Positions 6,079 through 18,651 of a stretch of 64,000 nt of DNA are shown one piece after another; the stretch's first letter is position 1; every line of letters starts with the position of its first letter. The notes beneath the pieces were generated by a model, which searched no databases, had not been told where the DNA came from, and saw nothing but the letters and a program-made list of their open reading frames with translations. The stretch comes from Rhodococcus sp. OK519 (GTDB lineage Bacteria; Actinomycetota; Actinomycetes; Mycobacteriales; Mycobacteriaceae): contig NZ_QAOW01000008.1 of NCBI RefSeq assembly GCF_003051005.1, positions 1 through 64,000 of the forward strand. The letters are read 5' to 3'. The position numbers and the translations under genes are program-made.

Positions 6079-7272
6079 ATGAAGAAACACCTGTACCTAC
6101 TGATGTTGACCATGATCATCGTGGTCTCGAGTGAGCTGCAAGTGCCCGCGATGATGTCAGAAATGGCCCACGACCTCGGGGTGGACACAGGAAAGATCGG
6201 CCTGCTTGTCTCGATCTTCGCCCTAGGCATGGCACTCGGCGGGCCGGTGATCGCCTATGCTCTGCGGCACCGCCCGCCCAAGCAAGCACTGCTCACCGTG
6301 GTCGCCGCCTACGCGGTCCCCGAGATGCTCGTCCCCGCCGTGCACGAGTACTGGTGGGTGGTACTGATGCGCATCGTGACCGGTTGCCTCGCGGGGGCGG
6401 CGGTGGGACTGTCGATCGTCTACGCCACCAGGCTTGCACCGAGTGCGGACAAAATCGGCGAGTCCGTCTCAATTGTGCTGAGCGGCATCATGGTCGGCAC
6501 GGTGGTAGGGCTTCCTGTCTCCCACTTCATCGCCGGCCGCTGGAACTGGCAGGCCACTTTCTACATTCTCGGCGCCGCAGCTCTTGCCGTGTTCGTCGTG
6601 AGCCTCCTCGCGCTCGCCCCGAGAAGCGCCGCCACCGCGGACGACAGCGCACAGGACGTGCGCAACCTTCGTCTCCCCCAGCTGTGGTCGCGCTACCTCG
6701 TGAGCTTCCTGACCATCGGTGCCGCATACGCGGCGTTCTCCTACTTCACGCCGCTCCTGGAAGAAGGCGCCGGGTTCGGCGCAGACACGACGACGCTGAT
6801 ACTTCTCGCGTACGGACTCTGCTCACTCGTCGGCAATCTGATCGTCGGGAAGCTGGCAGACAAGCACGCCGTCGGCGTTCTGCGATTCGGCCACGCCCTG
6901 CTCTTCGTCTCGCTGGGCGTACTCGCACTCGCAGGACAGATTCAGCCCCTGGTCCTCATCATGGTGCTTGTCGTCGGGCTCGCCGGGGTCACGATGAACC
7001 CGCCGCTGGTAACCCGCGTCGTGGAGATCGGGGGCACGGGAAACCTGGTGAGCACCTTCCACACGTCGGTCATCACCCTGGGCATCACGGTCGGGACCGC
7101 GGTGAGCGCGTTCGCGATCAGCATCTTCGGAAACGACCCCGCGGTCGCCATGTGGACCGGCAGCACGTTCGCGCTCCTGGCTGCAGTCACACTCGCCCTA
7201 CAGAAGGACCGCAAGCGGACCGGGAACACCGAACTTGGTCAGCCGCCCGCGGCGAAGGTCCGTGTCAGCTGA
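6079..7272 (+). CDS. MFS transporter, DHA1-type drug exporter
   Basis: 397 residues with 12 predicted membrane segments and the AraJ/Cmx-like layout. The N-terminus (MKKHLYLLMLTMIIVV) enters the first helix directly. A degenerate motif A appears as KQALLTVVAAY after the loop between helices 2 and 3, and a second copy as GKLADKHAVGVLRFG. It exports small toxic molecules by proton antiport (family knowledge); the substrate is unknown. It probably forms a unit with the TetR gene just upstream. Confidence 0.85.
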   Translation: MKKHLYLLMLTMIIVVSSELQVPAMMSEMAHDLGVDTGKIGLLVSIFALGMALGGPVIAYALRHRPPKQALLTVVAAYAVPEMLVPAVHEYWWVVLMRIVTGCLAGAAVGLSIVYATRLAPSADKIGESVSIVLSGIMVGTVVGLPVSHFIAGRWNWQATFYILGAAALAVFVVSLLALAPRSAATADDSAQDVRNLRLPQLWSRYLVSFLTIGAAYAAFSYFTPLLEEGAGFGADTTTLILLAYGLCSLVGNLIVGKLADKHAVGVLRFGHALLFVSLGVLALAGQIQPLVLIMVLVVGLAGVTMNPPLVTRVVEIGGTGNLVSTFHTSVITLGITVGTAVSAFAISIFGNDPAVAMWTGSTFALLAAVTLALQKDRKRTGNTELGQPPAAKVRVS

Positions 7273-7317: not shown

Positions 7318-7941
7318 TCAGCCTTCGACCGGCGCTGCGACACCGAGGCTGAGGGCGCCCATGATCCTCGGCGCACCCTTCTCGTAGAAGCTGTCGAGAT
7401 CCCTGATCTCGAAGCCCGCGACACGTACGAGTGCGGGGATGTCGCGAGTGAGGTGGCAGCCGCCGGCGACGGCCTTCTGAATCGGCTCGAACCGGCGCTG
7501 CCAGCGCTGAACCTTGGTGTGCGGCGCGAGTCCGTGTTCGACGAAGTGCAGAGTCCCGCCGGGCTTCAGGACTCGCCGCACTTCGTTCAGCGCGGCGCCG
7601 ACGTCGGGGATGGTGCACATCGTCCAGGTGGACAGGGCGGTATCGAAGGTGTTGTCGGGAAACGGAAGTGACTGCCCGTCGAGCCCGGATCGCTCGACGG
7701 AGACACCGGAGCGCGACAGCCGCTTGCCGGCCAGCTTCCATGCCTCGTCGGCCGGTTCGACGGCGCTGACCGAGTCGACAGCGGCGGGGTAGAAGGGAAT
7801 ATTGAGACCCGACCCGAAGCCGATCTCGACCACACGGCCGTTCAGTCCCGCGCACACGCGCTTCCGCGACCCTTCGGTCAACGACATCCCGCACGAGACG
7901 TCCACCAGGTGCGGGACGATCCGATCCGTGTAGAACCCCAT
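7318..7941 (-). CDS. Class I SAM-dependent methyltransferase
   Basis: 207 residues. The ATG at 7941 is chosen because it begins MGFYTDRIVPHLVD and has GGGAGG 10 bases upstream. SAM-binding motif I is VEIGFGSGLN, and the post-motifs include LPFPDNTFDTAL, EVRRVLKPGG and FVEHGLAP. The profile matches the UbiE/type-11 methyltransferases often annotated as phosphatidylethanolamine N-methyltransferase-like in actinobacteria. It is the last gene of the minus-strand run beginning at 13943, 22 bp behind the M20 gene. Substrate unknown; the context allows a methylated small peptide or an unrelated lipid role. Confidence 0.85.
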   Translation of the reverse strand: MGFYTDRIVPHLVDVSCGMSLTEGSRKRVCAGLNGRVVEIGFGSGLNIPFYPAAVDSVSAVEPADEAWKLAGKRLSRSGVSVERSGLDGQSLPFPDNTFDTALSTWTMCTIPDVGAALNEVRRVLKPGGTLHFVEHGLAPHTKVQRWQRRFEPIQKAVAGGCHLTRDIPALVRVAGFEIRDLDSFYEKGAPRIMGALSLGVAAPVEG

Positions 7942-7963
7942 CTGCAGCCTCCCGATCCGTTCC

Positions 7964-9118
7964 TCACTCCCCCGACTCCACCTCGAAGTCTCCACCGTAG
8001 GCGAGGGCGAGGAAGGTGCGCACCCCGTACACGAGGGCACGCTCGTCCAGGTCGAAGTTCGGCGTGTGCAGATCATGTCGCGCACTGGTGCCGTCCCAGA
8101 CACCCAGCCGTGCCATGGCACCGGGAACGTGCTCGAGGTACCACGCGAAATCCTCGCCCCCGCTCGATTGTCCGGCCTCGGCCAGATTCTCGACACCCAC
8201 GACGGACTGGATCGCTGCGATCATTTCGGCGGTGGCCTCGGGGTCGTTGACGACCGGCGGCACGCCCTGCACGTAGTCCAGTTCGTGCTCGACGCCGTAC
8301 GGCGCGAGCAGGTCTGCGACGGCGCGCCGCACCAGCGGTTCCACCGTGGACCACGTCCGGTGCGACGCGCTGCGCAGAGTGCCCACCAGTTCCCCCGACT
8401 CCGGAATGGCGTTGCCGACCCTGCCCGCCCGGATCCGGCCCCAGGTCAGCACGGTGGCGGTGCGGGCGTCGAGTCGGCGATCGAGCACCGACGCCAGCCC
8501 GGTCACCAGCACGGACGCGGCGAAGATCAGGTCCCCCGTCAGGTGCGGACGCGCCGAATGGCCACCCGGAGAGGACAGTCGCACCGTGAGCATGGCGCCC
8601 GACGAGGTGATCGGGCCCGCCCGCGTGGCGATCTTGCCGATCTCGAGTTGCGGCGCGCAGTGCAGGGCGAAGATTCGCGAAACACCCTCGAGCGCACCGG
8701 CTGCGACGACCCTGAGGGAACCTCCCGGGGTCGTCTCCTCACCGGGTTGGAAGATCAACCTCACCCGTCGCGATGGAGGCTCGGCCGCCAGCACTGTCGC
8801 GGCCTCGAGGAGCATCGCGGTGTGCGCGTCGTGCCCGCACGCGTGGCACACCCCCTCGACCGTGGACGCATAGGGCGCACCGGTTGTCTCCGTCAACGGG
8901 AGCGCGTCGAGGTCGGCCCGCAACGCGACGCACGTCGCGGTGTCGGGCCCGACGTCGCACCACAGGCCGGTACCGCTCGGCAGGTCCACCGGAGCGAGTC
9001 CCAGCGAACGCAGGTGGTCACGCACCAGCGCGGTGGTCCGGAACTCCTCGAAGGACAGTTCGGGGTGGGCGTGCAGATCCCGTCGCCAGGCGACGATCCG
9101 GTCGTGATCGATGTGCAT
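7964..9118 (-). CDS. M20-family amidohydrolase (N-acyl-amino-acid amidohydrolase type)
   Basis: 384 residues. The dinuclear metal motif HACGHDAHTAM is intact. LIFQPGEE carries the catalytic Glu pair, SSPGGHSARPH belongs to the lid domain, and SSGGEDFAWY to the C-terminal metal region. These fit the M20D group (hippurate hydrolase, N-acyl-L-amino-acid amidohydrolase, IAA-amino-acid hydrolase), which removes an acyl group from a capped amino acid. The gene starts 16 bp after the S9 peptidase stop and is followed by a methyltransferase. In this operon it is a candidate for removing an N-acyl cap or splitting an amidated dipeptide. Confidence 0.9.
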   Translation of the reverse strand: MHIDHDRIVAWRRDLHAHPELSFEEFRTTALVRDHLRSLGLAPVDLPSGTGLWCDVGPDTATCVALRADLDALPLTETTGAPYASTVEGVCHACGHDAHTAMLLEAATVLAAEPPSRRVRLIFQPGEETTPGGSLRVVAAGALEGVSRIFALHCAPQLEIGKIATRAGPITSSGAMLTVRLSSPGGHSARPHLTGDLIFAASVLVTGLASVLDRRLDARTATVLTWGRIRAGRVGNAIPESGELVGTLRSASHRTWSTVEPLVRRAVADLLAPYGVEHELDYVQGVPPVVNDPEATAEMIAAIQSVVGVENLAEAGQSSGGEDFAWYLEHVPGAMARLGVWDGTSARHDLHTPNFDLDERALVYGVRTFLALAYGGDFEVESGE

Positions 9119-9134
9119 CGTCCAGGCACCCCCG

Positions 9135-11018
9135 TCAGATCGCCGAGACCGGGGCGTCGGACCGGGCCAGTCGGCTCGTCAGCCAGTTCACCATCGTCTT
9201 GGCGAGTGTGTCCCGATTCTCGCGCTTGACGATGTCGTGGCCCTCGTCGCGGAACAACAACAGTTCGGCGACACCACCGTGGGCTCGCACCGACGCCACG
9301 ACCTGTTCGGATTCACTGACCGGCACGTTGGTGTCGTTGGCGCCGTGCACCACGAGGACGGGCGCCCTCAGGGAGGCGACGCGGTGGATCGGCGAGAGCT
9401 CCGCCAGTAGCTCCCGGTCGTGCTCCGGGTGCCCGTACTTGGGATAGGCGGCGGCCGCGATCCACGGTTCCGTATTGGCATAGAAGGTTTCGAGGTTGCT
9501 CATGCCGCAGACGGCGATGCCCGTGGCGAACAGGTCGGGGTGGAACGTGAGCGCCGTCAACGTCAGGTACCCGCCGTACGAGTGCCCGGCGCACGCGATC
9601 CGCGCGGGGTCGGCCAGTCCGTTCTCCACGACGTAGCGCACGCAGTCCGCGACGTCGTCGATGCCGGCGAATCGGCCGTACCGCTCGTCGGCGTGCATGA
9701 AGGTGCGGCCGAATCCGCCCGAGCCGCGCACGTTCGGCGCAAAGACGGTGATGCCGGCTTCGACGAGGGCCGGGAAGTAGTCGCTGTATCCCGGACGTTC
9801 CTGAAGCTCCGGTCCGCCGTGGAACCACAGCATCACCGGTCCGGGCTCGTCCCCGGCCGCACGGTACAGCCATCCGGTGAGGGGCAGCCCGTCCCGCGCC
9901 GTGAGTTCGGCGAGCATCGGGGCGTCGGCCCGGGCGATCCGGGTCCGGGCCGGTTCCACGGGACCCCACTCCCCCGTTCGCGTGTCGACGATCTCCACCG
10001 ACGGCGGCATCCCGGGGCCCTCCACCGTGACCGCCAGCAACGAGCCGTCGGCACTGATACTGAGCTCGGACGCCACCAGCCCCGGCAGGCTGATCGGGGA
10101 ATCGAGCGTGCCGTCCGCGAGATGCAAGATCTGCAACTCGCTCAGGCCCTTGTAGTTCCACAGCAGGGCCACCGTGGCATGGTCGTCGCTGACGACGAAC
10201 TCGTCGAGGTCGAAGTTGTCCCGCTCGGCCAGCACGCGATAGGAGACACCCCGATCGGAGGCGGCCACACCGAGCAAACGCGCGAACTCCGCGCCGTTGT
10301 CACTGCGCACGAGCGCGCGGATGTACCGGTCCGGTTCACCCTCGCTCGACGCCCACGGGGATCGGTGCTGGCCGAGCACACCGAGCAGTCGGTGGTCGTC
10401 GAGGAGAACGCCCGCGTCGGTGGTCGATCCGAAGTCCGTCGGCAGCAACGGGGCCCGGCTTCCGTCGTCGCGGTGCAACAACAGTTCACGGTGCCCGCGC
10501 GGCCCCACCCGGAGCAGCGCGGATCCGTCCCACGCGTCCACGAGGAAACTGCCGACACGACGGTCGAGCACAGTGGTGTCCTGGGTGTGCGGATCGACCA
10601 ACCGCGCCTCCGCCACTCCATCCTCGTCGGTCGCGGTGAGCGCCACCCGGTTCCCGTCCCATCCGATCAGCTCGGCCGAGACTGCGTGCTGCGACCCGAC
10701 GAGGCGGGCCGACCGATCCAGCGGATCGGTTTGCACGACCCACACCTGAGTGCGGTTACCGCCGTGCGGGGCGACCTGGCACGCGAGCCACCCGCTGTCC
10801 GCCGAATGCACGATCCTCGTGACGGGACCGGGCACCGGCAGTTCCACGCGTCGGTCCGTGCTGCCGTGCCGGCCCGACAGGAATCGCTGCACGGCCCAGG
10901 GGTAGCCCCCGTCGTCGACGATGTGCGCGAATCCGGTCGCGTCCGGCGACACCGATGCGCCCGAAGTGAAGCGGATGTGCCGTCCGCCTGAAGGTTCCGT
11001 CGACTCCCGAGCGGTCAC
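9135..11018 (-). CDS. Prolyl-oligopeptidase-family serine peptidase (S9)
   Basis: About 627 residues. The GTG at 11018 overlaps the amidotransferase stop by 4 bp (GTGA); longer in-frame readings only run into the antisense of that gene. The N-terminal two thirds form repeated beta segments of a propeller, as in acyl-aminoacyl peptidases. The C-terminal hydrolase domain has MLWFHGGPE, the nucleophile motif GHSYGGYLTLTAL, HGANDTNVPVSESEQV with the catalytic Asp, and DEGHDI with the catalytic His. No signal peptide, so it is cytosolic. S9 enzymes cleave short peptides, often N-blocked ones. Its coupling to a ligase and an amidotransferase suggests turnover of the product of the operon. Confidence 0.9.
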   Translation of the reverse strand: MTARESTEPSGGRHIRFTSGASVSPDATGFAHIVDDGGYPWAVQRFLSGRHGSTDRRVELPVPGPVTRIVHSADSGWLACQVAPHGGNRTQVWVVQTDPLDRSARLVGSQHAVSAELIGWDGNRVALTATDEDGVAEARLVDPHTQDTTVLDRRVGSFLVDAWDGSALLRVGPRGHRELLLHRDDGSRAPLLPTDFGSTTDAGVLLDDHRLLGVLGQHRSPWASSEGEPDRYIRALVRSDNGAEFARLLGVAASDRGVSYRVLAERDNFDLDEFVVSDDHATVALLWNYKGLSELQILHLADGTLDSPISLPGLVASELSISADGSLLAVTVEGPGMPPSVEIVDTRTGEWGPVEPARTRIARADAPMLAELTARDGLPLTGWLYRAAGDEPGPVMLWFHGGPELQERPGYSDYFPALVEAGITVFAPNVRGSGGFGRTFMHADERYGRFAGIDDVADCVRYVVENGLADPARIACAGHSYGGYLTLTALTFHPDLFATGIAVCGMSNLETFYANTEPWIAAAAYPKYGHPEHDRELLAELSPIHRVASLRAPVLVVHGANDTNVPVSESEQVVASVRAHGGVAELLLFRDEGHDIVKRENRDTLAKTMVNWLTSRLARSDAPVSAI

Positions 11019-12799
11019 AGCCGCTCCATGGCCTGCAGCCACATCTCCAGCAGTCCCACCTGCCACAGGGTGTTCACGCCGCGGGCGGTACGAATATCGT
11101 TGGGAGTGGCGAACATCGCATCGAGCGCTTCCGGCCGGAACAGGCCTCGCTCGCGAGCGCTGCGGCTGCGCAGTGCGTCCTGCACGAGGTCGAGGACCCC
11201 GCCCTCGAGATGCCGGATTCCGGGGACCGGGAAGTACCCCTTGGTCCGATCGATCACTTCGCTCGGCAGTAGGCCGCGGCTGGCATCCTTGAGCACGCCC
11301 TTGCCGTCGCCCGCCAGTTTGAGGTCCGGCGGGCAGGTGGCCGCCAGCTCCACGAATTCGTGATCGAGGAACGGCACCCGAGCCTCGAGCCCCCACGCCA
11401 TCGTCATCGTGTCGACCCGCTTGACCGGGTCCTCGACGAGCATCACCGTCGTGTCGAGTCGCAACGCCGCATCGACGGAGGTGTCGGCCCCCGGCGCGCT
11501 GTGATGCCGGACGACGAATTCCGAACTGACGTCACGATCGAGACAGTAGGCGGGGTCGAGCAGGGCCGCGATGTCGTCGTGGGTGCGGTCGAAGTACACC
11601 TTGGCGTACGCCTCGGCCGACTGTTCCCGCGCGACCCCGACCAGCGGCGGATACCAGTGGTAGCCGCCGAGGATCTCATCGGCGCCCTGGCCGGACTGCA
11701 CCACCTTGACGGACTTGGAGACCTCCTCCGACAGGAGGTAGAACGCCACGCAGTCGTGGCTGAGCATCGGCTCGCTCATCGCTTCGACTGTCTTCGGGAG
11801 CGCCGCGGGCAACCGCGACGGATCGATGTGAATCTGCTGATGATCGGTACCGAACGTCCGTGCCACCAGATCGGAGTAGAAGTACTCGTTTCCGGATTCG
11901 CCTCCGGCCGAGTCGAATCCGATGCTGAATGTCGCGAGACCCCGCTGCCCCTGTTCGGCCAGTAGGGCCACGAGCAGACTGGAATCGATGCCGCCCGACA
12001 GCAGCACCCCGACGGGAACGTCGGCGACCATCCGGCGCGACACCGCGGTGCGCAGTGAGTCCATCAGCGCCTGCTGCCACTGCTCCGGCGTCCACGACGT
12101 CCGCTCGGGAGCGGGCTCGAATCGGGGCTCCCAGTACTGCCTTTCGGTGGCGGCTCCGTCGGGCTGCACCACCCGGATCGTCGCCGGTGGCAGCTTACGG
12201 ACGCCCTCGAACACGGTGTGCGGCGCCGGCACGGCCGCGGCGAAGCTCAGATAGTGATGCAGAGCGACCCGGTCGATCGTGGTGTCGACGTCACCGCCAC
12301 GCAGCAGCGCCTGCAACGTCGAGGCGAATCGCAACCGTCCCGGCCGCTCGGTGAAGTACAGGGGCTTGATGCCCAGACGATCCCGCGCGAAAGTCACCAC
12401 ACCCGAGTCGATTTCGTGCACCGCGAAGGCGAACATTCCTTTGAAGCGGTGGACGCAGTCCGCGCCCCAGCGGTGGAAGCTCTTGAGCACCACCTCACTG
12501 TCCGCCGTCGAGAAGAACCGGTATCCCGCTTGGTGCAGTTCCGCGCGCAACTCCTTGTAGTTGTAGATGCAGCCGTTGAAGACCAGCGACAACCGGAGTT
12601 CGCTGTCGACCATCGGCTGACCGCCCCGCGCGGACAGGTCGATGATGCACAACCGGCGATGACCGAAGGCCACCGATTGCTGGGCATAGGCGCCGGCCGA
12701 ATCCGGCCCGCGGGTCACCATCGCGTCGGTCATCCGGGCCACCGCTGCCACGTCGGGCGGCGTCCCGTCGAAGCGAATCTCACCGCATATGCCACACAT
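11015..12799 (-). CDS. Asparagine-synthase-like glutamine amidotransferase (NAGGN amidotransferase type)
   Basis: 594 residues. The ATG at 12799 is chosen because MCGICGEIRF exposes the catalytic Cys2 of a class II (Ntn) glutaminase after Met removal. The synthetase half has the ATP pyrophosphatase motif LLSGGIDSSLLVAL. The C-terminus has RVPFLDHEFVELA, then TKGYFPVPGIRHL and LWQVGLLEMWLQ, which I associate with the N-acetylglutaminylglutamine amidotransferase group (TIGR03104) rather than true AsnB. That group amidates the C-terminus of an osmoprotectant dipeptide. Its usual partners, an ATP-grasp synthetase and an M42 peptidase, are absent. Instead it overlaps a GCS2-type ligase by 20 bp and an S9 peptidase by 4 bp. 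Subfamily assignment is from memory of the motif and needs an HMM check. Confidence 0.82.
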   Translation of the reverse strand: MCGICGEIRFDGTPPDVAAVARMTDAMVTRGPDSAGAYAQQSVAFGHRRLCIIDLSARGGQPMVDSELRLSLVFNGCIYNYKELRAELHQAGYRFFSTADSEVVLKSFHRWGADCVHRFKGMFAFAVHEIDSGVVTFARDRLGIKPLYFTERPGRLRFASTLQALLRGGDVDTTIDRVALHHYLSFAAAVPAPHTVFEGVRKLPPATIRVVQPDGAATERQYWEPRFEPAPERTSWTPEQWQQALMDSLRTAVSRRMVADVPVGVLLSGGIDSSLLVALLAEQGQRGLATFSIGFDSAGGESGNEYFYSDLVARTFGTDHQQIHIDPSRLPAALPKTVEAMSEPMLSHDCVAFYLLSEEVSKSVKVVQSGQGADEILGGYHWYPPLVGVAREQSAEAYAKVYFDRTHDDIAALLDPAYCLDRDVSSEFVVRHHSAPGADTSVDAALRLDTTVMLVEDPVKRVDTMTMAWGLEARVPFLDHEFVELAATCPPDLKLAGDGKGVLKDASRGLLPSEVIDRTKGYFPVPGIRHLEGGVLDLVQDALRSRSARERGLFRPEALDAMFATPNDIRTARGVNTLWQVGLLEMWLQAMERL

Positions 12800-13943
12800 G
12801 TTCGGCAACTCCTCCCGGGCCGTCGGCCCCGGTCCAGGTGTCCCCACCGCCGGCAGTCTCGGCCGCCAGCAGGTCCACGACGTCGGTCAGCCGGCCCCGC
12901 CGACGCAAGATCCGGCGCTGCCGCGCCGACGAGCTGCCCTCCTTCAGAGTGACGGCCGCCAACTCGGAGATCACGTCCCAATCACCCGCGGATTCGAGGT
13001 GGGGCCGCAGTGACCGGATCAGATCCTCGACGACCTCCGAAGCGGGACGCGGCGCGGCAGCCTCCACGTCGACCAGATCGCCCTCGAGACCCGAACGCGC
13101 CGCCCGCCACATGGCCGCGCGCACGAGCGTGGGCGAGACCTGTAGCGGTGGCCTCCCCTCACGGAGGGCGGCGGCCTCGCGTTCGACGAGCGCACGGAAG
13201 AGCCCCGCCACGAGCGCAATCGTGTCCACCGACGGGCAGCTGTCACACACCCGCAGCTCGAGCGTCGAATACCGATCGGACGGTCGCAGGTCGAAGTAGA
13301 CCATTCCGGGGCCGCTGATCACCCCACTCGCGACGAGGTCCGCGATGAGCCGGTCGTATTCCGCGGCCGATTGCACCGGCGCCGCGGGGCCGGTGGTGGG
13401 CCAGCGGCTCCACACCAGGCATCGCATGCTGGCGTATCCGGTGTCGGTGCCGTCGGCCCAGAACGGTGAACTCGCACTCAGAGCGAGGAAGACCGGTAGG
13501 TACGGGGCGGCACGATTGGCGATTCGCACCGCCTCGTCGCGATCCGCCACGTCCACATGCACCTGTGTGCCGCAGATCAGCTGCTCGCGGGCGAGGAGCT
13601 GATAGTCGGCGAGCATGCGCCGATACCGTGGGGTCTCGGTGACCGCCATCTCGGCGGGCACCGACAGGGGCACCGCCCCCGCGGCCACCACTCCGATGCC
13701 GAGGGCGGCCGCGGTGTCGACGAGGACCCTCCGCAGGTGGGTCAGATCGTCCCGGAGATCGGCCAGGTCCGGGAACACCCCGCTGTTGACCTCGACGACG
13801 CAGCGCTGCAGTTCCTCGACATAGACGTCCCCGGGGAGTCGCTCGAGCAGTTCCGGTGCGCGCGTGACCAGCCGCCGGGTCGTAGCGTCGATGAGATGGA
13901 ACTCCTCCTCGACGCCCAGCTTGCGTCCTCCATCGGTCGCCAC
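12780..13943 (-). CDS. Carboxylate-amine ligase, GCS2/YbdK-type glutamate-cysteine ligase homologue
   Basis: 387 residues. The family start GVEEEFHLID is present, followed by CVVEVNSGVF and the TQVHVDV strand of the active site. YFDLRPSDRYSTLELRVCD (in two parts) and the C-terminal basic RQRRILRR complete the GCS2 pattern. GCS2 enzymes join the side-chain or main-chain carboxyl of an amino acid, often glutamate, to an amine using ATP; YbdK shows weak glutamate-cysteine ligase activity. It is the first gene of the operon and overlaps the amidotransferase by 20 bp. It therefore probably supplies the dipeptide-like substrate that the amidotransferase amidates. Mycothiol-using actinobacteria normally lack glutathione, which argues against a plain glutathione role. 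Confidence 0.85.
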   Translation of the reverse strand: MATDGGRKLGVEEEFHLIDATTRRLVTRAPELLERLPGDVYVEELQRCVVEVNSGVFPDLADLRDDLTHLRRVLVDTAAALGIGVVAAGAVPLSVPAEMAVTETPRYRRMLADYQLLAREQLICGTQVHVDVADRDEAVRIANRAAPYLPVFLALSASSPFWADGTDTGYASMRCLVWSRWPTTGPAAPVQSAAEYDRLIADLVASGVISGPGMVYFDLRPSDRYSTLELRVCDSCPSVDTIALVAGLFRALVEREAAALREGRPPLQVSPTLVRAAMWRAARSGLEGDLVDVEAAAPRPASEVVEDLIRSLRPHLESAGDWDVISELAAVTLKEGSSSARQRRILRRRGRLTDVVDLLAAETAGGGDTWTGADGPGGVAEHVWHMR

Positions 13944-14140
13944 AGCGGCTTACCTCGCGCGCCGGGAAGATGTGGCGGGCATCGGGCTCATCCAGGGTCC
14001 TCTCTGTCCCGTCGACGAGCTGACCGAGCCGTGCACTGTCTTCCGTACGCGACCCGCGTCGTCGACCGGTTACCCAGGCTGTCGGTGTTCCAACCGCACT
14101 GCCCGACCAGTCTTCGCACCCTCATGGCCGATTCACACAC

Positions 14141-14202: not shown

Positions 14203-14571
14203 CTACCGCGACTCGCCGCAGCAGTTCGGGTCGAGCACCAGACGGAGTGCGTCGAGCGATTCGCCGCGGGCCCGGTAGTAGACGTTCATGCCGCGCCGCT
14301 CCGATTCGACCATGCCGGCCTTCTTGAGTCGCCCCAGGTGGTGGCTGACGGTCGACTCCCCCAGGCCGACCCCGGCGGCGAGGTCGCACGTGCAGACCGC
14401 TCCACCGTCGGTCGTGAGCAGGATCGACACGAGCTTGATCCGGACCGGGTCGGCGAGCGCCTTCAACCGGAGCGCGATCTGCAGCGCCGCGTCGTCACTC
14501 AACGGCGCTGCGGAGACCGGCGCGCAGCAGATCGGTGCGCTGACATCCACGATCGGCAGGGCTTTCGGCAT
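14203..14571 (-). CDS. arsR: ArsR-family arsenite-responsive repressor
   Basis: 122 residues from the ATG at 14571, where the conserved N-terminus MPKALPIVDV begins. Cys15-Cys16 match the numbering known for Corynebacterium glutamicum ArsR, whose As(III) site uses Cys15, Cys16 and Cys55. Cys60 and Cys62 (VCTCDL) lie in the alpha-3 region, and there is a C-terminal CC pair. The DNA-binding helix is STVSHHLGRLKKAGMV. It is divergent from arsI with a TATGTCGAA/TTCGACATA dyad between them. Likely an As(III)-released repressor of arsI and itself. Confidence 0.9.
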   Translation of the reverse strand: MPKALPIVDVSAPICCAPVSAAPLSDDAALQIALRLKALADPVRIKLVSILLTTDGGAVCTCDLAAGVGLGESTVSHHLGRLKKAGMVESERRGMNVYYRARGESLDALRLVLDPNCCGESR

Positions 14572-14598
14572 GCCGCGATCGTAACCGGCTTCTTGACT

Positions 14599-14643
14599 TA
14601 TGTCGAAAAGGTGGGAGTCTGTAGTTGCAAAGAATTCGACATA
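14599..14643. promoter_or_regulatory. ArsR operator candidate between arsR and arsI
   Basis: TATGTCGAA (14599-14607) and TTCGACATA (14635-14643) are exact inverted arms 27 bp apart in the divergent promoter region. Similar TTCGA(C/T)AT units recur at the second arsR start near 16741-16774. Confidence 0.5.
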
Positions 14644-14665
14644 TATCGCATAGGTGGAGGCTCTC

Positions 14666-15142
14666 ATGTCACGCGCCCAACTCGCTCTCAACGTCGACGA
14701 CCTCGAGCAGGCGGTCACGTTCTACTCGAAGCTCTTCGGCACGCAGCCGACCAAGCTGAAGCCCGGTTACGCGAACTTCGCGATCACCGAGCCGCCGCTC
14801 AAGCTGGTACTGCTCGAGAATCCCGGCAAGGGCGGCACGATCAACCACCTCGGAGTCGAGGTCGAATCGTCGGAGAAGGTGCACGCGGAGATTGCGCGCC
14901 TCACCGACGAGGGCCTATTTACGGACGAGGAGATCGGCACCACCTGCTGCTTCGCCACCCAGGACAAGGTGTGGGTCACCGGCCCGGCCGGCGAGAAGTG
15001 GGAGGTCTACACGGTGCTCGCCGACTCGGAGTCTTTCGGCTCGAGTCCGCAGCACGTCGAGGACAGCAATCCCGTCGGCGGCGTCTGCTGCCGCACCGCA
15101 GCGAAGGACGACTCCGCACCAAACGAATCAACTTGCTGCTGA
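14666..15142 (+). CDS. arsI: ArsI/CadI-family protein, probable C-As lyase
   Basis: 158 residues from the ATG at 14666 (RBS GGTGGAGG). It is a vicinal-oxygen-chelate (glyoxalase-like) fold with metal ligands in the N-terminal LNVDDLE region, INHLGVEV (His) and GPAGEKWEVY (Glu). The ArsI thiol pair sits in GTTCCFATQDKVWV, and more Cys pairs lie near the C-terminus (GGVCC, STCC). ArsI cleaves trivalent methyl- and aromatic arsenicals using Fe(II) and oxygen; the mycobacterial homologue is called CadI because cadmium induces it. Divergent from arsR, so probably under its control. Confidence 0.88.
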   Translation: MSRAQLALNVDDLEQAVTFYSKLFGTQPTKLKPGYANFAITEPPLKLVLLENPGKGGTINHLGVEVESSEKVHAEIARLTDEGLFTDEEIGTTCCFATQDKVWVTGPAGEKWEVYTVLADSESFGSSPQHVEDSNPVGGVCCRTAAKDDSAPNESTCC

Positions 15143-15164
15143 ACGGAATACTCCCACCATCCGG

Positions 15165-15272
15165 CTACGGCAGGAGCTCGGCGATCAAGACTTCCACCCG
15201 GTTGCGAATCTCGTCGCGGTTGGGCCGGACGGCGTTGTGGATACAGATGAAGAGCGCGCTGGGAACTACCAC
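15165..15272 (-). pseudogene. arsC: arsC (arsenate reductase) relic with a large in-frame internal deletion
   Basis: The minus strand reads VVVPSALFICIHNA and then VRPNRDEIRNRVEVLIAELL before a TAG. The first part is the phosphatase-loop start of thiol arsenate reductases (normally LFVCVHNAGRS). The second is their C-terminus (normally VRPIRDEI.RV..LI.EL). Roughly 90 to 100 residues between them are missing, with the frame kept. What remains is 35 codons from a GTG at 15272, 5 bp after the ACR3 stop. That is where arsC sits in arsR-acr3-arsC operons. It cannot fold as a reductase. Confidence 0.7.
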
Positions 15273-15277
15273 GGGGT

Positions 15278-16372
15278 TCAGGACTCCTTCGACGCCAACG
15301 CATTTTCCGGCCCGGTTCGGGCGAAGCGCTTGCGTAGCGTGAGGGAGACGTAGACGAGGCCGACGAGTACGGGGACCTCGATCAGCGGCCCCACGACACC
15401 GGCGAGCGCCTGGCCGGAGGTGACGCCGTAGGTGGCGATCGCGACCGCGATGGCGAGCTCGAAGTTGTTGCCCGCCGCGGTGAATGCGAGGGCGGTGGTG
15501 CGCTCGTAGCCCAGGCCCATCGCCGCGCCGAGTGCGTAGCCGCCGCCCCACATGATCGCGAAGTAGGCGAGCAGCGGGATCGCGATCCGCACGACATCCA
15601 GCGGCTGGGAGGTGATCTGCTCGCCCTGCAGGGCGAAGAGGATCACGATCGTGAACAGCAACCCGTACAGCGCCCCCGGGCCGATCCGCGGCAGGAACCT
15701 CGACTCGTACCAGGCTCGGCCTCTCGCCTTCTCCCCGAAGTGCCGGGTGAGAAAGCCTGCCAGGAGCGGGATTCCGAGGAAGATCAGCACCGACTTCGCG
15801 ATCTGCCACGGCGACGTGTCGATCGCGGTCTGCTCCAGCCCGAGCCAACCCGGCAGGACCGACAGGTAGAACCAGCCGAGCACGGCGAACATGACCACTT
15901 GGAACACCGAGTTGATCGCCACGAGCACGGCTGCGGCCTCCCGGTCACCGCACGCGAGGTCGTTCCAGATGATGACCATCGCGATGCACCGGGCCAGGCC
16001 GACGATGATCAGGCCGGTCCGGTACTCGGGCAGGTCGGGTAGGAGGATCCAGGCGAGCGCGAACATCAGTGCCGGTCCGAGCACCCAGTTCAGCAGCAGC
16101 GAACCGAGCAGCAGTCTGCGATCGCCTGTGACGGTGTCGAGGCGGTCGTAGCGAACCTTCGCCAGCACCGGATACATCATGATCAGCAGGCCGAGGGCGA
16201 TCGGCAGTGAAATGCCGTCGAGTTCCACCGACGACAGCGCGTCGCCCAGCCCGGGGATCATCCGTCCCAGCAGCAGGCCCGCCAGCATCGCGACACCGAT
16301 CCACACCGGCAGGAAACGGTCCAGGGTCGAGAGTTTGCCGACGACGGCGGGGTGCGCGGTCGCGTCGGTCAC
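15278..16372 (-). CDS. acr3: ACR3-family arsenite efflux transporter
   Basis: 364 residues with 10 hydrophobic segments. The GTG at 16372 is the start because it overlaps the arsR stop by 4 bp (GTGA); the upstream extension is antisense-like. Hallmarks are GLARCIAMVIIWNDLACGD, with the essential helix-4 Cys, and AFTAAGNNFELAIAVAI in the helix-9 region. ACR3 exports As(III) by proton exchange at the cell membrane. It is translationally coupled to the second arsR and followed by the arsC relic. Confidence 0.93.
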   Translation of the reverse strand: MTDATAHPAVVGKLSTLDRFLPVWIGVAMLAGLLLGRMIPGLGDALSSVELDGISLPIALGLLIMMYPVLAKVRYDRLDTVTGDRRLLLGSLLLNWVLGPALMFALAWILLPDLPEYRTGLIIVGLARCIAMVIIWNDLACGDREAAAVLVAINSVFQVVMFAVLGWFYLSVLPGWLGLEQTAIDTSPWQIAKSVLIFLGIPLLAGFLTRHFGEKARGRAWYESRFLPRIGPGALYGLLFTIVILFALQGEQITSQPLDVVRIAIPLLAYFAIMWGGGYALGAAMGLGYERTTALAFTAAGNNFELAIAVAIATYGVTSGQALAGVVGPLIEVPVLVGLVYVSLTLRKRFARTGPENALASKES

Positions 16373-16749
16373 CGGACGATCCCCACGACCGGTGCGCAGG
16401 CCGAGCCCAGGACGCCGTCCACTTCCGGGGACAGCACCGCCGCGAGCTGCGCCAGCGCCGACGGGATCACCCGGTAGTACACCCACGTTCCTCGCCGCTC
16501 GCTGTCGAGCAGACCGGCCTCTCGTAGCACCTTCAGGTGGTGCGAGATTGTCGGCTGCGACAGGGCGAATGCGGGCGAGATGTCACAGACGCAGCTCTCC
16601 CCGCCCTCGTGCGCGGCGATGAGGCTCAGCATGCGCAACCGCGCCGGATCGCCGAGCGCCTTGAACATCCGGGCCAGATCGCTCGCCCGGTCCTCGGGGA
16701 TCGGCTCTGTCCCGAGCGGTGTGCAGCACCCCGCACCTTGATTCGACAT
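16369..16749 (-). CDS. arsR: ArsR-family repressor of the acr3 operon
   Basis: 126 residues. An N-terminal Cys pair (GAGCCTPLG), SCVCDIS in the metal-binding helix and HTH QPTISHHLKVLREAGLL are all present. It is a different ArsR from the one at 14203, with its Cys pair at residues 8-9 rather than 15-16. The 4-bp overlap with acr3 makes this an arsR-acr3 operon. TTCGA repeats span its start (16741-16774), so self-repression is likely. Confidence 0.92.
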   Translation of the reverse strand: MSNQGAGCCTPLGTEPIPEDRASDLARMFKALGDPARLRMLSLIAAHEGGESCVCDISPAFALSQPTISHHLKVLREAGLLDSERRGTWVYYRVIPSALAQLAAVLSPEVDGVLGSACAPVVGIVR

Positions 16750-16774
16750 TCTTCGATATTGACAGACTTCGAAT
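16741..16774. promoter_or_regulatory. TTCGA-repeat operator candidate at the second arsR
   Basis: ATTCGA (16741-16746) and TCGAAT (16769-16774) form an inverted pair, with TTCGATATT between them. The site overlaps the arsR start codon and resembles the dyad at 14599-14643. Confidence 0.45.
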
Positions 16775-16800
16775 CATCCGGTGCGGCGGGTCCGCCGACC

Positions 16801-18651
16801 TCACTCCGCGACGGTGCGGAAACCCAGCATCATGTCGTGGTCCTCGTGGTCGAGCATGTGACAGTGCCACACGTACCCCTGCAACTGCCCGGACATGGCC
16901 GGCGCGGTGTCGTGCCCCGCGTGGGCGGGCGTGCCGTGCCCTGCGTGTTGGGGCGAGGCCGGCACTGGCGCCGCGACCTCGCCGACACCGAACGTCGCGT
17001 CGGGGTCGAAACCCAACCGGGCGGCCGTCGGGAATACCGCCACGATGCGGGTGACTTCCCCGGGATTCGCGACGACGGTGTCCTTGCGCCCGGCCTCCCA
17101 CGCTGCTGGCGGGATCAGCGGCCCGGTGACGAAGGCATCGACGGGCGGCGCCCACTTGGTCCCCACCGGTGGCGCCGGGTTCTCCCGCGTATAGCGCGAC
17201 AGGTCGAAGGCCTGTCGGCCGAGAACCCGAAAGTTGACCAGGTGCAGGTGGATCGGATGCGGCTCGGGGGTGACGTTGACGATGTTCCACTGCTCGACGG
17301 TGCCCTGCCGCGGCATCTCGATATCGGTATCCCCGAACCGAAGGTTGTTGAGCGACATCAGCACACTGCCGGACGACGGATCGGGCAACTGCATGACGGT
17401 GACGGTTCGCTGCACCTGCGGCGCCGGCACCGGTTCGAGATCCGCGGGCTGCCCGGCCCCGCCTCGCAGCGTCTCCGGCACCGCGCCGGTGAAGCCGCGC
17501 CCGCCCGCCACCTTGAACCGGCAGAACAGTGGCATCGGTCGTGCACCGCGCTGCGAGGCCGCCAACGGTGGCGGCTCGTCGTTGCACAGTTCCACCGTCG
17601 CTCCCGGCTCGAGCGCACCGAAATCGACCAGCAGATCGACGCGTTCGCCGGGCGCGAGTCGCACATTCGTCGTCGGCACCGGTGCCGCGAGCATCCCACT
17701 CTCCATGCCGAGGACCCAGAATCGCATTCTGTTGCCGAAGAACAGATTCCACACGCTGAACGACGCGGCGTTGACGATCCGGAGCCGGTACGTTCCGCGG
17801 GCGACCTCGAGTTCCGGCCAGATCTTTCCGTTCACCACACCGACGTCACCGGGGGTGCCACCGTCCCAGCGGCCCTGCGGCACGACGGGGGTCGCGCGGA
17901 TACTCTGACGCCCGTCGGCGGTGAAGATCTTCTCCTGCAGGATCAGCGGTAGCTCGAACTCGCCGGACGGCAGGCCCCACGCGTTTCCTGCTGCACCCGT
18001 GTCGAATTCGTCGCGCAGCAGGAACATTCCTGCCAGACCCGCATACACGTTGAGGCGGGTGATGCCCATCGCGTGGTCGTGGTACCAGAACTGGGTGGCC
18101 TCGTGCACGTTCGGATAGTGGTGCACGTGCCCCTGTCCGGGCCGCTGCAGGAAGGCGGGGTGGCCGTCGTGTTCGGGTGGTGTCACCGCACCGTGCAGGT
18201 GCATCGACGTCGGCACCGCCGTCCGGTCCTGCTCGGTGACGCCGTGCAGCGTGGTGTCGAAGTCGGCTGCGAGCGGGTGGACGCCGATCTCGTTGCGGTA
18301 GGCGACGGTCAGGGGATCGCCGTCGTGCGCCTCGACCGTCGGCCCCAGGTAGTCCATGCCGCCGTAGGCGAGGGCCGGCGACGGCTGCAGGTCGCGATGG
18401 AACCGGTGGGTGGTGCTCGCGGCCCGCAGTTCGAGCTGCGATCCGGTCAGCACCGGCAGCATGGGCAGCGGATCGACGAACGGCTCGAGCTTCGGCGACG
18501 AGAACAGCAGCGGCCGAGACGGGTCGATGTTCCCGAGGTCGCCGAGATCCTGCGCGCGCACCGCGGCCATTCCCGCCGCGCCGACGCCGACTGCGCCCGC
18601 GGTCCACGCGAGCCCGCGATTGAACGCGCGTCTCGACATCCGTCCACCCAT
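16801..18651 (-). CDS. Multicopper oxidase (CotA/bilirubin-oxidase-like), Tat-exported
   Basis: 616 residues. The N-terminus carries a twin-arginine signal (SRRAFNRGLAW followed by an Ala/Gly-rich segment). All four copper motifs are visible: MHLHGA, WYHDHAMG, HPIHLHLVNF and WHCHMLDHEDHDMM, the last with the Met axial ligand of type 1 copper. Substrates of this family are phenols, bilirubin, metal ions or o-aminophenols; the exact one cannot be read. A His-rich insert (HAGHGTPAHAGHD) lies before the last motif and could bind metal. An internal ATG at 18639 is an alternative start. It lies 52 bp downstream of the arsenic genes on the same strand, but with its own start region. Confidence 0.92.
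   Translation of the reverse strand: MGGRMSRRAFNRGLAWTAGAVGVGAAGMAAVRAQDLGDLGNIDPSRPLLFSSPKLEPFVDPLPMLPVLTGSQLELRAASTTHRFHRDLQPSPALAYGGMDYLGPTVEAHDGDPLTVAYRNEIGVHPLAADFDTTLHGVTEQDRTAVPTSMHLHGAVTPPEHDGHPAFLQRPGQGHVHHYPNVHEATQFWYHDHAMGITRLNVYAGLAGMFLLRDEFDTGAAGNAWGLPSGEFELPLILQEKIFTADGRQSIRATPVVPQGRWDGGTPGDVGVVNGKIWPELEVARGTYRLRIVNAASFSVWNLFFGNRMRFWVLGMESGMLAAPVPTTNVRLAPGERVDLLVDFGALEPGATVELCNDEPPPLAASQRGARPMPLFCRFKVAGGRGFTGAVPETLRGGAGQPADLEPVPAPQVQRTVTVMQLPDPSSGSVLMSLNNLRFGDTDIEMPRQGTVEQWNIVNVTPEPHPIHLHLVNFRVLGRQAFDLSRYTRENPAPPVGTKWAPPVDAFVTGPLIPPAAWEAGRKDTVVANPGEVTRIVAVFPTAARLGFDPDATFGVGEVAAPVPASPQHAGHGTPAHAGHDTAPAMSGQLQGYVWHCHMLDHEDHDMMLGFRTVAE

Follow-up and report, generated by a model that had tools for sequence, protein, structure and literature searches.

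A five-gene operon in a Prescottella genome

A 64,000-nucleotide stretch of Rhodococcus sp. OK519 DNA (contig NZ_QAOW01000008.1, positions 1 to 64,000; hereafter the window) carries, on the minus strand at 7318..13943, a five-gene operon that joins a carboxylate-amine ligase to a glutamine-dependent amidotransferase, two hydrolases and a methyltransferase. We confirmed all five open reading frames (ORFs) together with the families and spacings that a preliminary description of this DNA had given them. Running 5' to 3', the junctions are a 20-bp overlap, a 4-bp overlap and gaps of 16 and 22 bp. The first gene encodes a GCS2/YbdK-type ligase of 387 aa from which an ATP-grasp domain has been deleted (12780..13943). 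It is followed by a TIGR03104-type, AsnB-like amidotransferase of 594 aa (11015..12799), an S9 acylaminoacyl-peptidase-like hydrolase of 627 aa (9135..11018), an M20 aminoacylase/amidohydrolase-like hydrolase of 384 aa (7964..9118) and a class I S-adenosylmethionine-dependent methyltransferase of 207 aa (7318..7941). The S9 frame begins with a GTG that overlaps the AsnB stop by 4 bp; its family scan used a 618-aa version starting at 10991.

The window genome belongs to Prescottella, the Rhodococcus equi/hoagii group, which we covered with 14 genomes including this one. The genes are under purifying selection, with median ratios of nonsynonymous to synonymous substitution of 0.106-0.130 across the five genes at seven Prescottella loci (six for the methyltransferase). 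We rejected a decaying pseudo-operon on these values.

The ligase bears the scar of a deleted ATP-grasp domain

The window ligase is a full member of the GCS2 family. It matches PF04107 and exceeds the cut-offs of two subfamily models (NF010041, 366.7 bits against 332; TIGR02050, 279.4 against 176.4), and the family profile matches the YbdK structures 1r8g and 1tt4. GCS2 ligases are known for forming gamma-glutamyl bonds. A second GCS2 protein, encoded elsewhere in the genome, shares 32% identity with the one in the operon.

Relatives usually carry a larger enzyme, a fusion of GCS2 with a circularly permuted (CP) ATP-grasp ligase, followed by AsnB and then S9. Fused ligases span 845-891 aa in the 14 fused loci annotated first, and the C-terminal part of the five fused proteins scanned is a CP-ATP-grasp domain (PF14403 plus PF04174). 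Only one of the 14 Prescottella genomes, G208, has this domain, and there it is fused. A profile search at E 1e-5 that detected the G208 domain found no copy in the window genome, and we rejected relocation of the lost domain because genome searches find no other copy.

What remains is a scar. The motif GGGDTWTG (12828..12851) near the end of the window ligase aligns with the C-terminal ...RGGGGKDTWIATG of the fused G208 protein, and 17 ATP-grasp domains all share GGG.KDTW. The seven Prescottella operon ligases other than that of G208 differ in how much of the scar is left: G205, G200 and G202 end in variants of PAGSSITNSLRGGGGKDTWTVTG, G203 in GGRDTWTVTG and the window in GGGDTWTG, while G204 has at most a vestige and G201 nothing. 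These seven truncated proteins group as one clade in the GCS2 tree (support 95), nested within a set that also includes G208 (99), the pattern expected from a single in-frame deletion. Judged from sequence, scar and tree together show that the Prescottella ligase lost its ATP-grasp domain through one internal in-frame deletion. The same trees suggest separate losses in Streptosporangiaceae. The earlier proposal that GCS2 takes the place of an ATP-grasp synthetase therefore gives way: most relatives fuse both.

The lost domain also bears on the nature of the product. At E 0.1 or better, the CP-ATP-grasp of the relatives matches one structure alone, 3n6x (a 507-bit profile match), deposited as a putative glutathionylspermidine synthase, which would suit a polyamine- or amine-coupled gamma-glutamyl compound resembling glutathionylspermidine. 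The deposited name is itself putative, however, and the seven Prescottella operons that lack the domain still keep AsnB and S9; we regard such a product as very improbable.

The amidotransferase lacks its canonical partners

The second gene encodes a TIGR03104 enzyme (940.1 bits against a cut-off of 570.1) with Cys2 in place and SGGIDS from residue 268, and its assignment to this group rather than to ordinary AsnB holds. It also passes TIGR01536 (423.5 bits against 267.1), as would a plain asparagine synthetase whose neighbours are unrelated to it. That explanation has very little to recommend it: the TIGR03104 score is over twice the TIGR01536 score, and the adjacency is repeated across many families. 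The best TIGR01536 match of the genome is another gene (478 bits), and on this and the TIGR03104 score we rejected an ordinary asparagine synthetase.

Databases name these proteins N-acetylglutaminylglutamine (NAGG) amidotransferase, including a GCS2-linked case in Streptomyces, and so imply the osmolyte NAGG amide (NAGGN). The partners of that pathway are absent, as the preliminary description had supposed. A profile search at E 1e-40 found the NAGG synthetase Ngg (TIGR03103) in none of the 14 Prescottella genomes; the same model matches 61 of 200 genomes of the order. The M42 peptidase (TIGR03106) was not found in the window genome at E 1e-20, in a search of nine genomes that did find it in G109. 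M42 was likewise not found in G130, which has Ngg, so the peptidase is not a constant feature of the NAGGN cassette. TIGR03104 scores above cut-off in 8 of the 14 Prescottella genomes, and all eight copies lie inside the GCS2 operon. With the enzyme in eight genomes and a recognisable NAGG synthetase in none, the osmolyte implied by the name is probably the wrong one here, as it probably is for the other actinobacteria that carry the operon.

The amidotransferases of the two contexts are closely similar yet separable. Between Ngg-linked (n=30) and GCS2-linked (n=75) proteins, three columns differ in near-fixed fashion and 143 are invariant, which suggests that the chemistry of both may be similar. 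Residue 570 is the cleanest column, R in 75/75 GCS2-linked and L in 28/30 Ngg-linked proteins. A TIGR03104 tree (112 rows) is divided by a branch with SH-like approximate likelihood ratio support of 98. One side holds 79 rows from GCS2/ATP-grasp/S9 contexts (three of them AsnB-S9-ATP-grasp loci without GCS2); the other holds the 30 Ngg-linked rows, two rows of another type from genus g20 and the outgroup. The root is unsure because the outgroup is very distant.

The near identity of the two sets raises the alternative that the operon makes NAGGN itself, with GCS2 (plus CP-ATP-grasp in relatives) replacing Ngg and acetylation supplied elsewhere. Against it stand the split of the tree by context, a Pfam scan that found no GNAT domain in the window GCS2 or in five fused relatives, and the gamma-glutamyl chemistry of the GCS2 family. 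In its favour, an asnO-dipeptidase-'ngg' set in Frankia is called an NAGGN cluster in the available part of PMC5563000, although its 'Ngg' is less than 15% identical to known ones. We consider synthesis of NAGGN by this operon quite unlikely.

A ligase-AsnB-S9 core recurs across actinobacteria

The recurrent core of the operon is ligase-AsnB-S9. GCS2, AsnB and S9 stand side by side in many actinobacterial families, and in the window they are adjacent on one strand. Co-occurrence of the genes thus reaches beyond this strain. Among the loci compared, all five genes without an ATP-grasp are confined to Prescottella, where they occur together in the window and in five of the 13 other genomes (L058, L059, L060, L062 and L066). 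The operon of L061 lacks the methyltransferase and that of L063 retains ATP-grasp. In L066, from a genome 79% complete, the AsnB, S9 and M20 frames are interrupted by sequencing error or decay. The preliminary description had named two outcomes that would tell against it, an ordinary AsnB score and a gene order confined to the strain; the 940-bit TIGR03104 score and linkage far beyond the strain are the opposite of both. Its interpretation as a whole is partly supported.

A survey of the order placed TIGR03104 in 94 of 200 genomes, at 106 loci. With 'near' meaning within 5 kb, 55 loci are near Ngg, 27 (a lower bound) near GCS2, none near both and 24 near neither. Fifteen of the 27 are of the operon type and come from nine genera and seven families. 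The remaining 12 all belong to g20 and lie beside a GCS2 of another subfamily (about 40% identity). The two genes converge in six cases, diverge in five and share a strand in one; eight of these 12 genomes hold another TIGR03104 gene. Two of the convergent pairs (L048, L049) are tens of bases apart, and one divergent pair (L169) is about 1.9 kb apart. Among the loci near neither partner for which longer flanks were available (n=16), 12 combine AsnB with CP-ATP-grasp and no GCS2 match (families f4 and f16), and in 11 of these S9 lies between the two; the other four lack that arrangement.

Named relatives show the range of architectures. We compared 77 loci, the best 80 of 548 named GCS2 relatives minus three already in the set, some of them cut by contig ends; as they were chosen by GCS2 similarity, their proportions are not natural frequencies. 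Fused ATP-grasp accompanies AsnB and S9 in 39, these plus M20 in four and AsnB in four, and occurs without AsnB in a further four. GCS2, AsnB and S9 occur without ATP-grasp in eight, and six are GCS2-M20 fusions. Two Planobispora loci (L114, L128) have two tandem GCS2 genes ahead of AsnB-S9. The AsnB and GCS2 of a locus in a Nevskia-named metagenome-assembled genome (MAG) exactly match those of a locus in a Mycobacterium MAG (L102/L103), so a binning error is probable.

Two hydrolases resemble enzymes that act on N-blocked substrates

The third and fourth genes encode hydrolases that resemble enzymes cleaving N-blocked substrates, in support of the earlier proposal. The S9 protein (PF00326) carries GHSYGG plus candidate Asp and His motifs, and its best solved relatives are 5l8s, 2qzp and 1ve6; the nearest is deposited as 'amino acyl peptidase' (5l8s), followed by acylamino-acid-releasing enzymes. 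The M20 protein scores 326.4 bits against 153.75 for the TIGR01891 amidohydrolase model and matches five structures, 1ysj (yxeP, the best), 4ewt, 1xmb, 6slf and 3io1, among them a deposited IAA-amino acid hydrolase (1xmb) and an N-alpha-acyl-glutamine aminoacylase (6slf). Action of these relatives on N-blocked substrates supports cleavage of a blocked product.

M20 is tied to GCS2 independently of the operon. The two are fused in one frame in eight loci (L064, L065, L073-L076, L083 and L100), where no AsnB or S9 match was found within the compared stretch, and these fusions form one set of nine rows, including one partial row, in the GCS2 tree (support 95). M20 also follows the core in Prescottella, three Rhodococcus, Antrihabitans and one Corynebacterium MAG, the last without AsnB.

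The methyltransferase is a local addition. It matches PF08241, falls under all NCBIfam cut-offs and, among the loci compared, adjoins the operon solely in Prescottella; in Antrihabitans (L077) a homologue lies 2.5 kb off on the opposite strand. A lineage-specific tailoring gene and patchy presence (8/14 in the genus) would fit a specialised metabolite, an amidated signalling or antibiotic peptide with the hydrolases serving self-protection or maturation. Strong purifying selection and spread over many families argue otherwise, and the adjoining major facilitator superfamily transporter (6079-7272) has no match of at least 150 bits in the other loci, within limited flanks and with other exporters not sought. 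We find this explanation unlikely.

A conserved promoter-like element precedes the operon

A candidate general-stress-sigma promoter, GTTG-N15-GGGTA, lies 127 bp upstream of GCS2 (14071..14094, minus strand). It resembles the SigF sites given for Mycobacterium smegmatis in the available part of PMC4694148. The element is retained in seven of eight Prescottella loci, the exception being L061, while spacer and flanks vary. The strict pattern, which was picked after viewing the window and for which related loci were counted separately, occurs in 10 of 75 GCS2-first loci, seven of the ten from Prescottella. Shuffled sequences gave a mean of 0.2 and a maximum of 2 in 200; a random-window control (100 window sets) gave the same mean and maximum. 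The strict pattern is also found at 7/29 Ngg loci and at AsnB-first loci without (2/15) and with (3/5) GCS2. The conserved element suggests that a general-stress sigma factor probably controls expression.

Two further features accompany the upstream region. A 13-codon leader ORF read by eye, MSPMPATSSRRAR-stop (13950..13991, minus strand), is in frame with GCS2 and closes just ahead of the GCS2 GTG start. It is present in six of the eight Prescottella loci, including the window; in the remaining two, GCS2 itself starts at this ATG. Farther upstream (14203-18651) lie an Rv2640c-type ArsR regulator, identified by profile match, and, by look only, CadI/ArsI-like, arsenite-permease-like, second ArsR-like and multicopper oxidase genes. 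The ArsR neighbour was not matched in some Prescottella operon loci (L059, L063, L066).

A predicted system for small peptide amides

We propose that the operon encodes a small non-ribosomal peptide-amide system that follows the logic of the NAGGN pathway with different ligases, and we put the probability of this reading at about 60%. By family, GCS2 would form an ATP-dependent bond between a carboxylate and the amino group of a second residue. The carboxylate is probably the gamma-carboxylate of glutamate, and the second residue may be glutamine. The TIGR03104 enzyme, by analogy with AsnO, would then amidate the free carboxylate with ammonia from glutamine, much as AsnO amidates NAGG in the NAGGN route (available part of PMC8070244). 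By homology, S9 and M20 may cleave the blocked product for its turnover. The ancestral Prescottella enzyme would also have had the CP-ATP-grasp ligase, and losing it should have made the product shorter or otherwise different.

Promoter-like element and analogy point to a possible stress or osmolyte role. Pseudomonas mutants in NAGGN genes grow much more slowly in salt (PMC8070244) and two NAGGN-assigned proteins of Frankia alni rise under polyethylene glycol (PMC5768760).

Several observations weigh against a dedicated peptide-amide pathway under stress control. The operon is not present in 6 of the 14 Prescottella genomes, and neither of the two Prescottella genomes that carry a GCS2-M20 fusion matches TIGR03104. 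GCS2 stands without the rest of the operon in 12 of the 77 named loci (L110 and L133 being cut by the contig end), and the flanks of five of these 12, viewed by eye on a crude gene call without a family scan, showed no shared operon. GCS2 is accompanied by ATP-grasp and S9 without AsnB in three loci (L107, L113, L147), and in G081 (L067) AsnB-S9 has no ligase match within 19 kb around. The genes are thus not obligate partners. Of the three diagnostic AsnB columns, two have exceptions: proteobacterial AsnO have K at 529 (both) and A at 278 (one). The supports of the GCS2 and TIGR03104 trees come from a quick search. A pattern similar to the promoter is rare in GCS2-first loci outside Prescottella (3/67; shuffle mean 0.4). 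Nor is there enrichment of a broader sigma-B pattern (4/75 GCS2-first loci against 1.9 expected).

A wider version of the peptide-amide proposal is tentative, and we would sooner bet against it than for it. TIGR03104 may be a constant capping enzyme paired with interchangeable ligases (Ngg, GCS2, CP-ATP-grasp, or the last two fused). Each combination would then yield its own stress-induced peptide amide, and the Prescottella deletion would have changed the product through removal of one ligation step. The natural series of loci, with both ligases, either one or a hydrolase fusion, makes the substrate logic testable. If the peptide-amide reading is true, it would point to a class of small peptide amides that has so far gone unrecognised and whose members may be stress metabolites.

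Relation to known systems

Literature searches returned no title or abstract beginning that names a GCS2-AsnB-S9 operon; they did not cover a 2009 amidoligase survey by Iyer, Aravind and colleagues, which reportedly catalogues amidotransferases and peptidases alongside ATP-grasp and GS-like ligases and may already include the operon linkage. In the available part of PMC4694148, the M. smegmatis SigF regulon includes an asparagine synthase and a carboxylate-amine ligase at MSMEG_2594 and MSMEG_5590; as the two locus numbers lie far apart, this is no description of the operon. The accessible portions of PMC2922099, PMC2588565, PMC5884947 and PMC8146288 do not mention it, and the last reports NAGGN itself from a Micromonospora.

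Among the closest known systems is the NAGGN cassette (asnO-ngg-M42; TIGR03104, TIGR03103 and TIGR03106), one operon in Azospirillum, which shares the amidotransferase family and the combination of ligase, amidotransferase and peptidase. Unlike it, the window operon has neither Ngg nor M42 and draws on the GCS2 family, with or without CP-ATP-grasp, and on S9 and M20 hydrolases; the amidotransferases of GCS2/ATP-grasp/S9 loci and the AsnO of NAGGN cassettes fall on opposite sides of a tree branch. The YbdK ligases (1r8g, 1tt4) share a full-length family match with the window GCS2, which, unlike them, is linked to an amidotransferase and has relatives fused to CP-ATP-grasp or M20. A plasmid locus of Streptomyces fungicidicus, known from annotation only, likewise has a glutamate--cysteine ligase, an 'N-acetylglutaminylglutamine amidotransferase' and an alpha/beta hydrolase in a row without ATP-grasp; unlike the window, it has no M20 or adjoining methyltransferase in the stretch examined. 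The Frankia asnO-dipeptidase-ngg cluster, the nearest account that the literature searches returned, is, in the available part of PMC5563000, assigned to NAGGN with no other ligase family named. Its order of AsnO, peptidase and a non-Ngg ligase is that of the AsnB-S9-CP-ATP-grasp loci, and from this description its 'putative Ngg' would fit the same arrangement.

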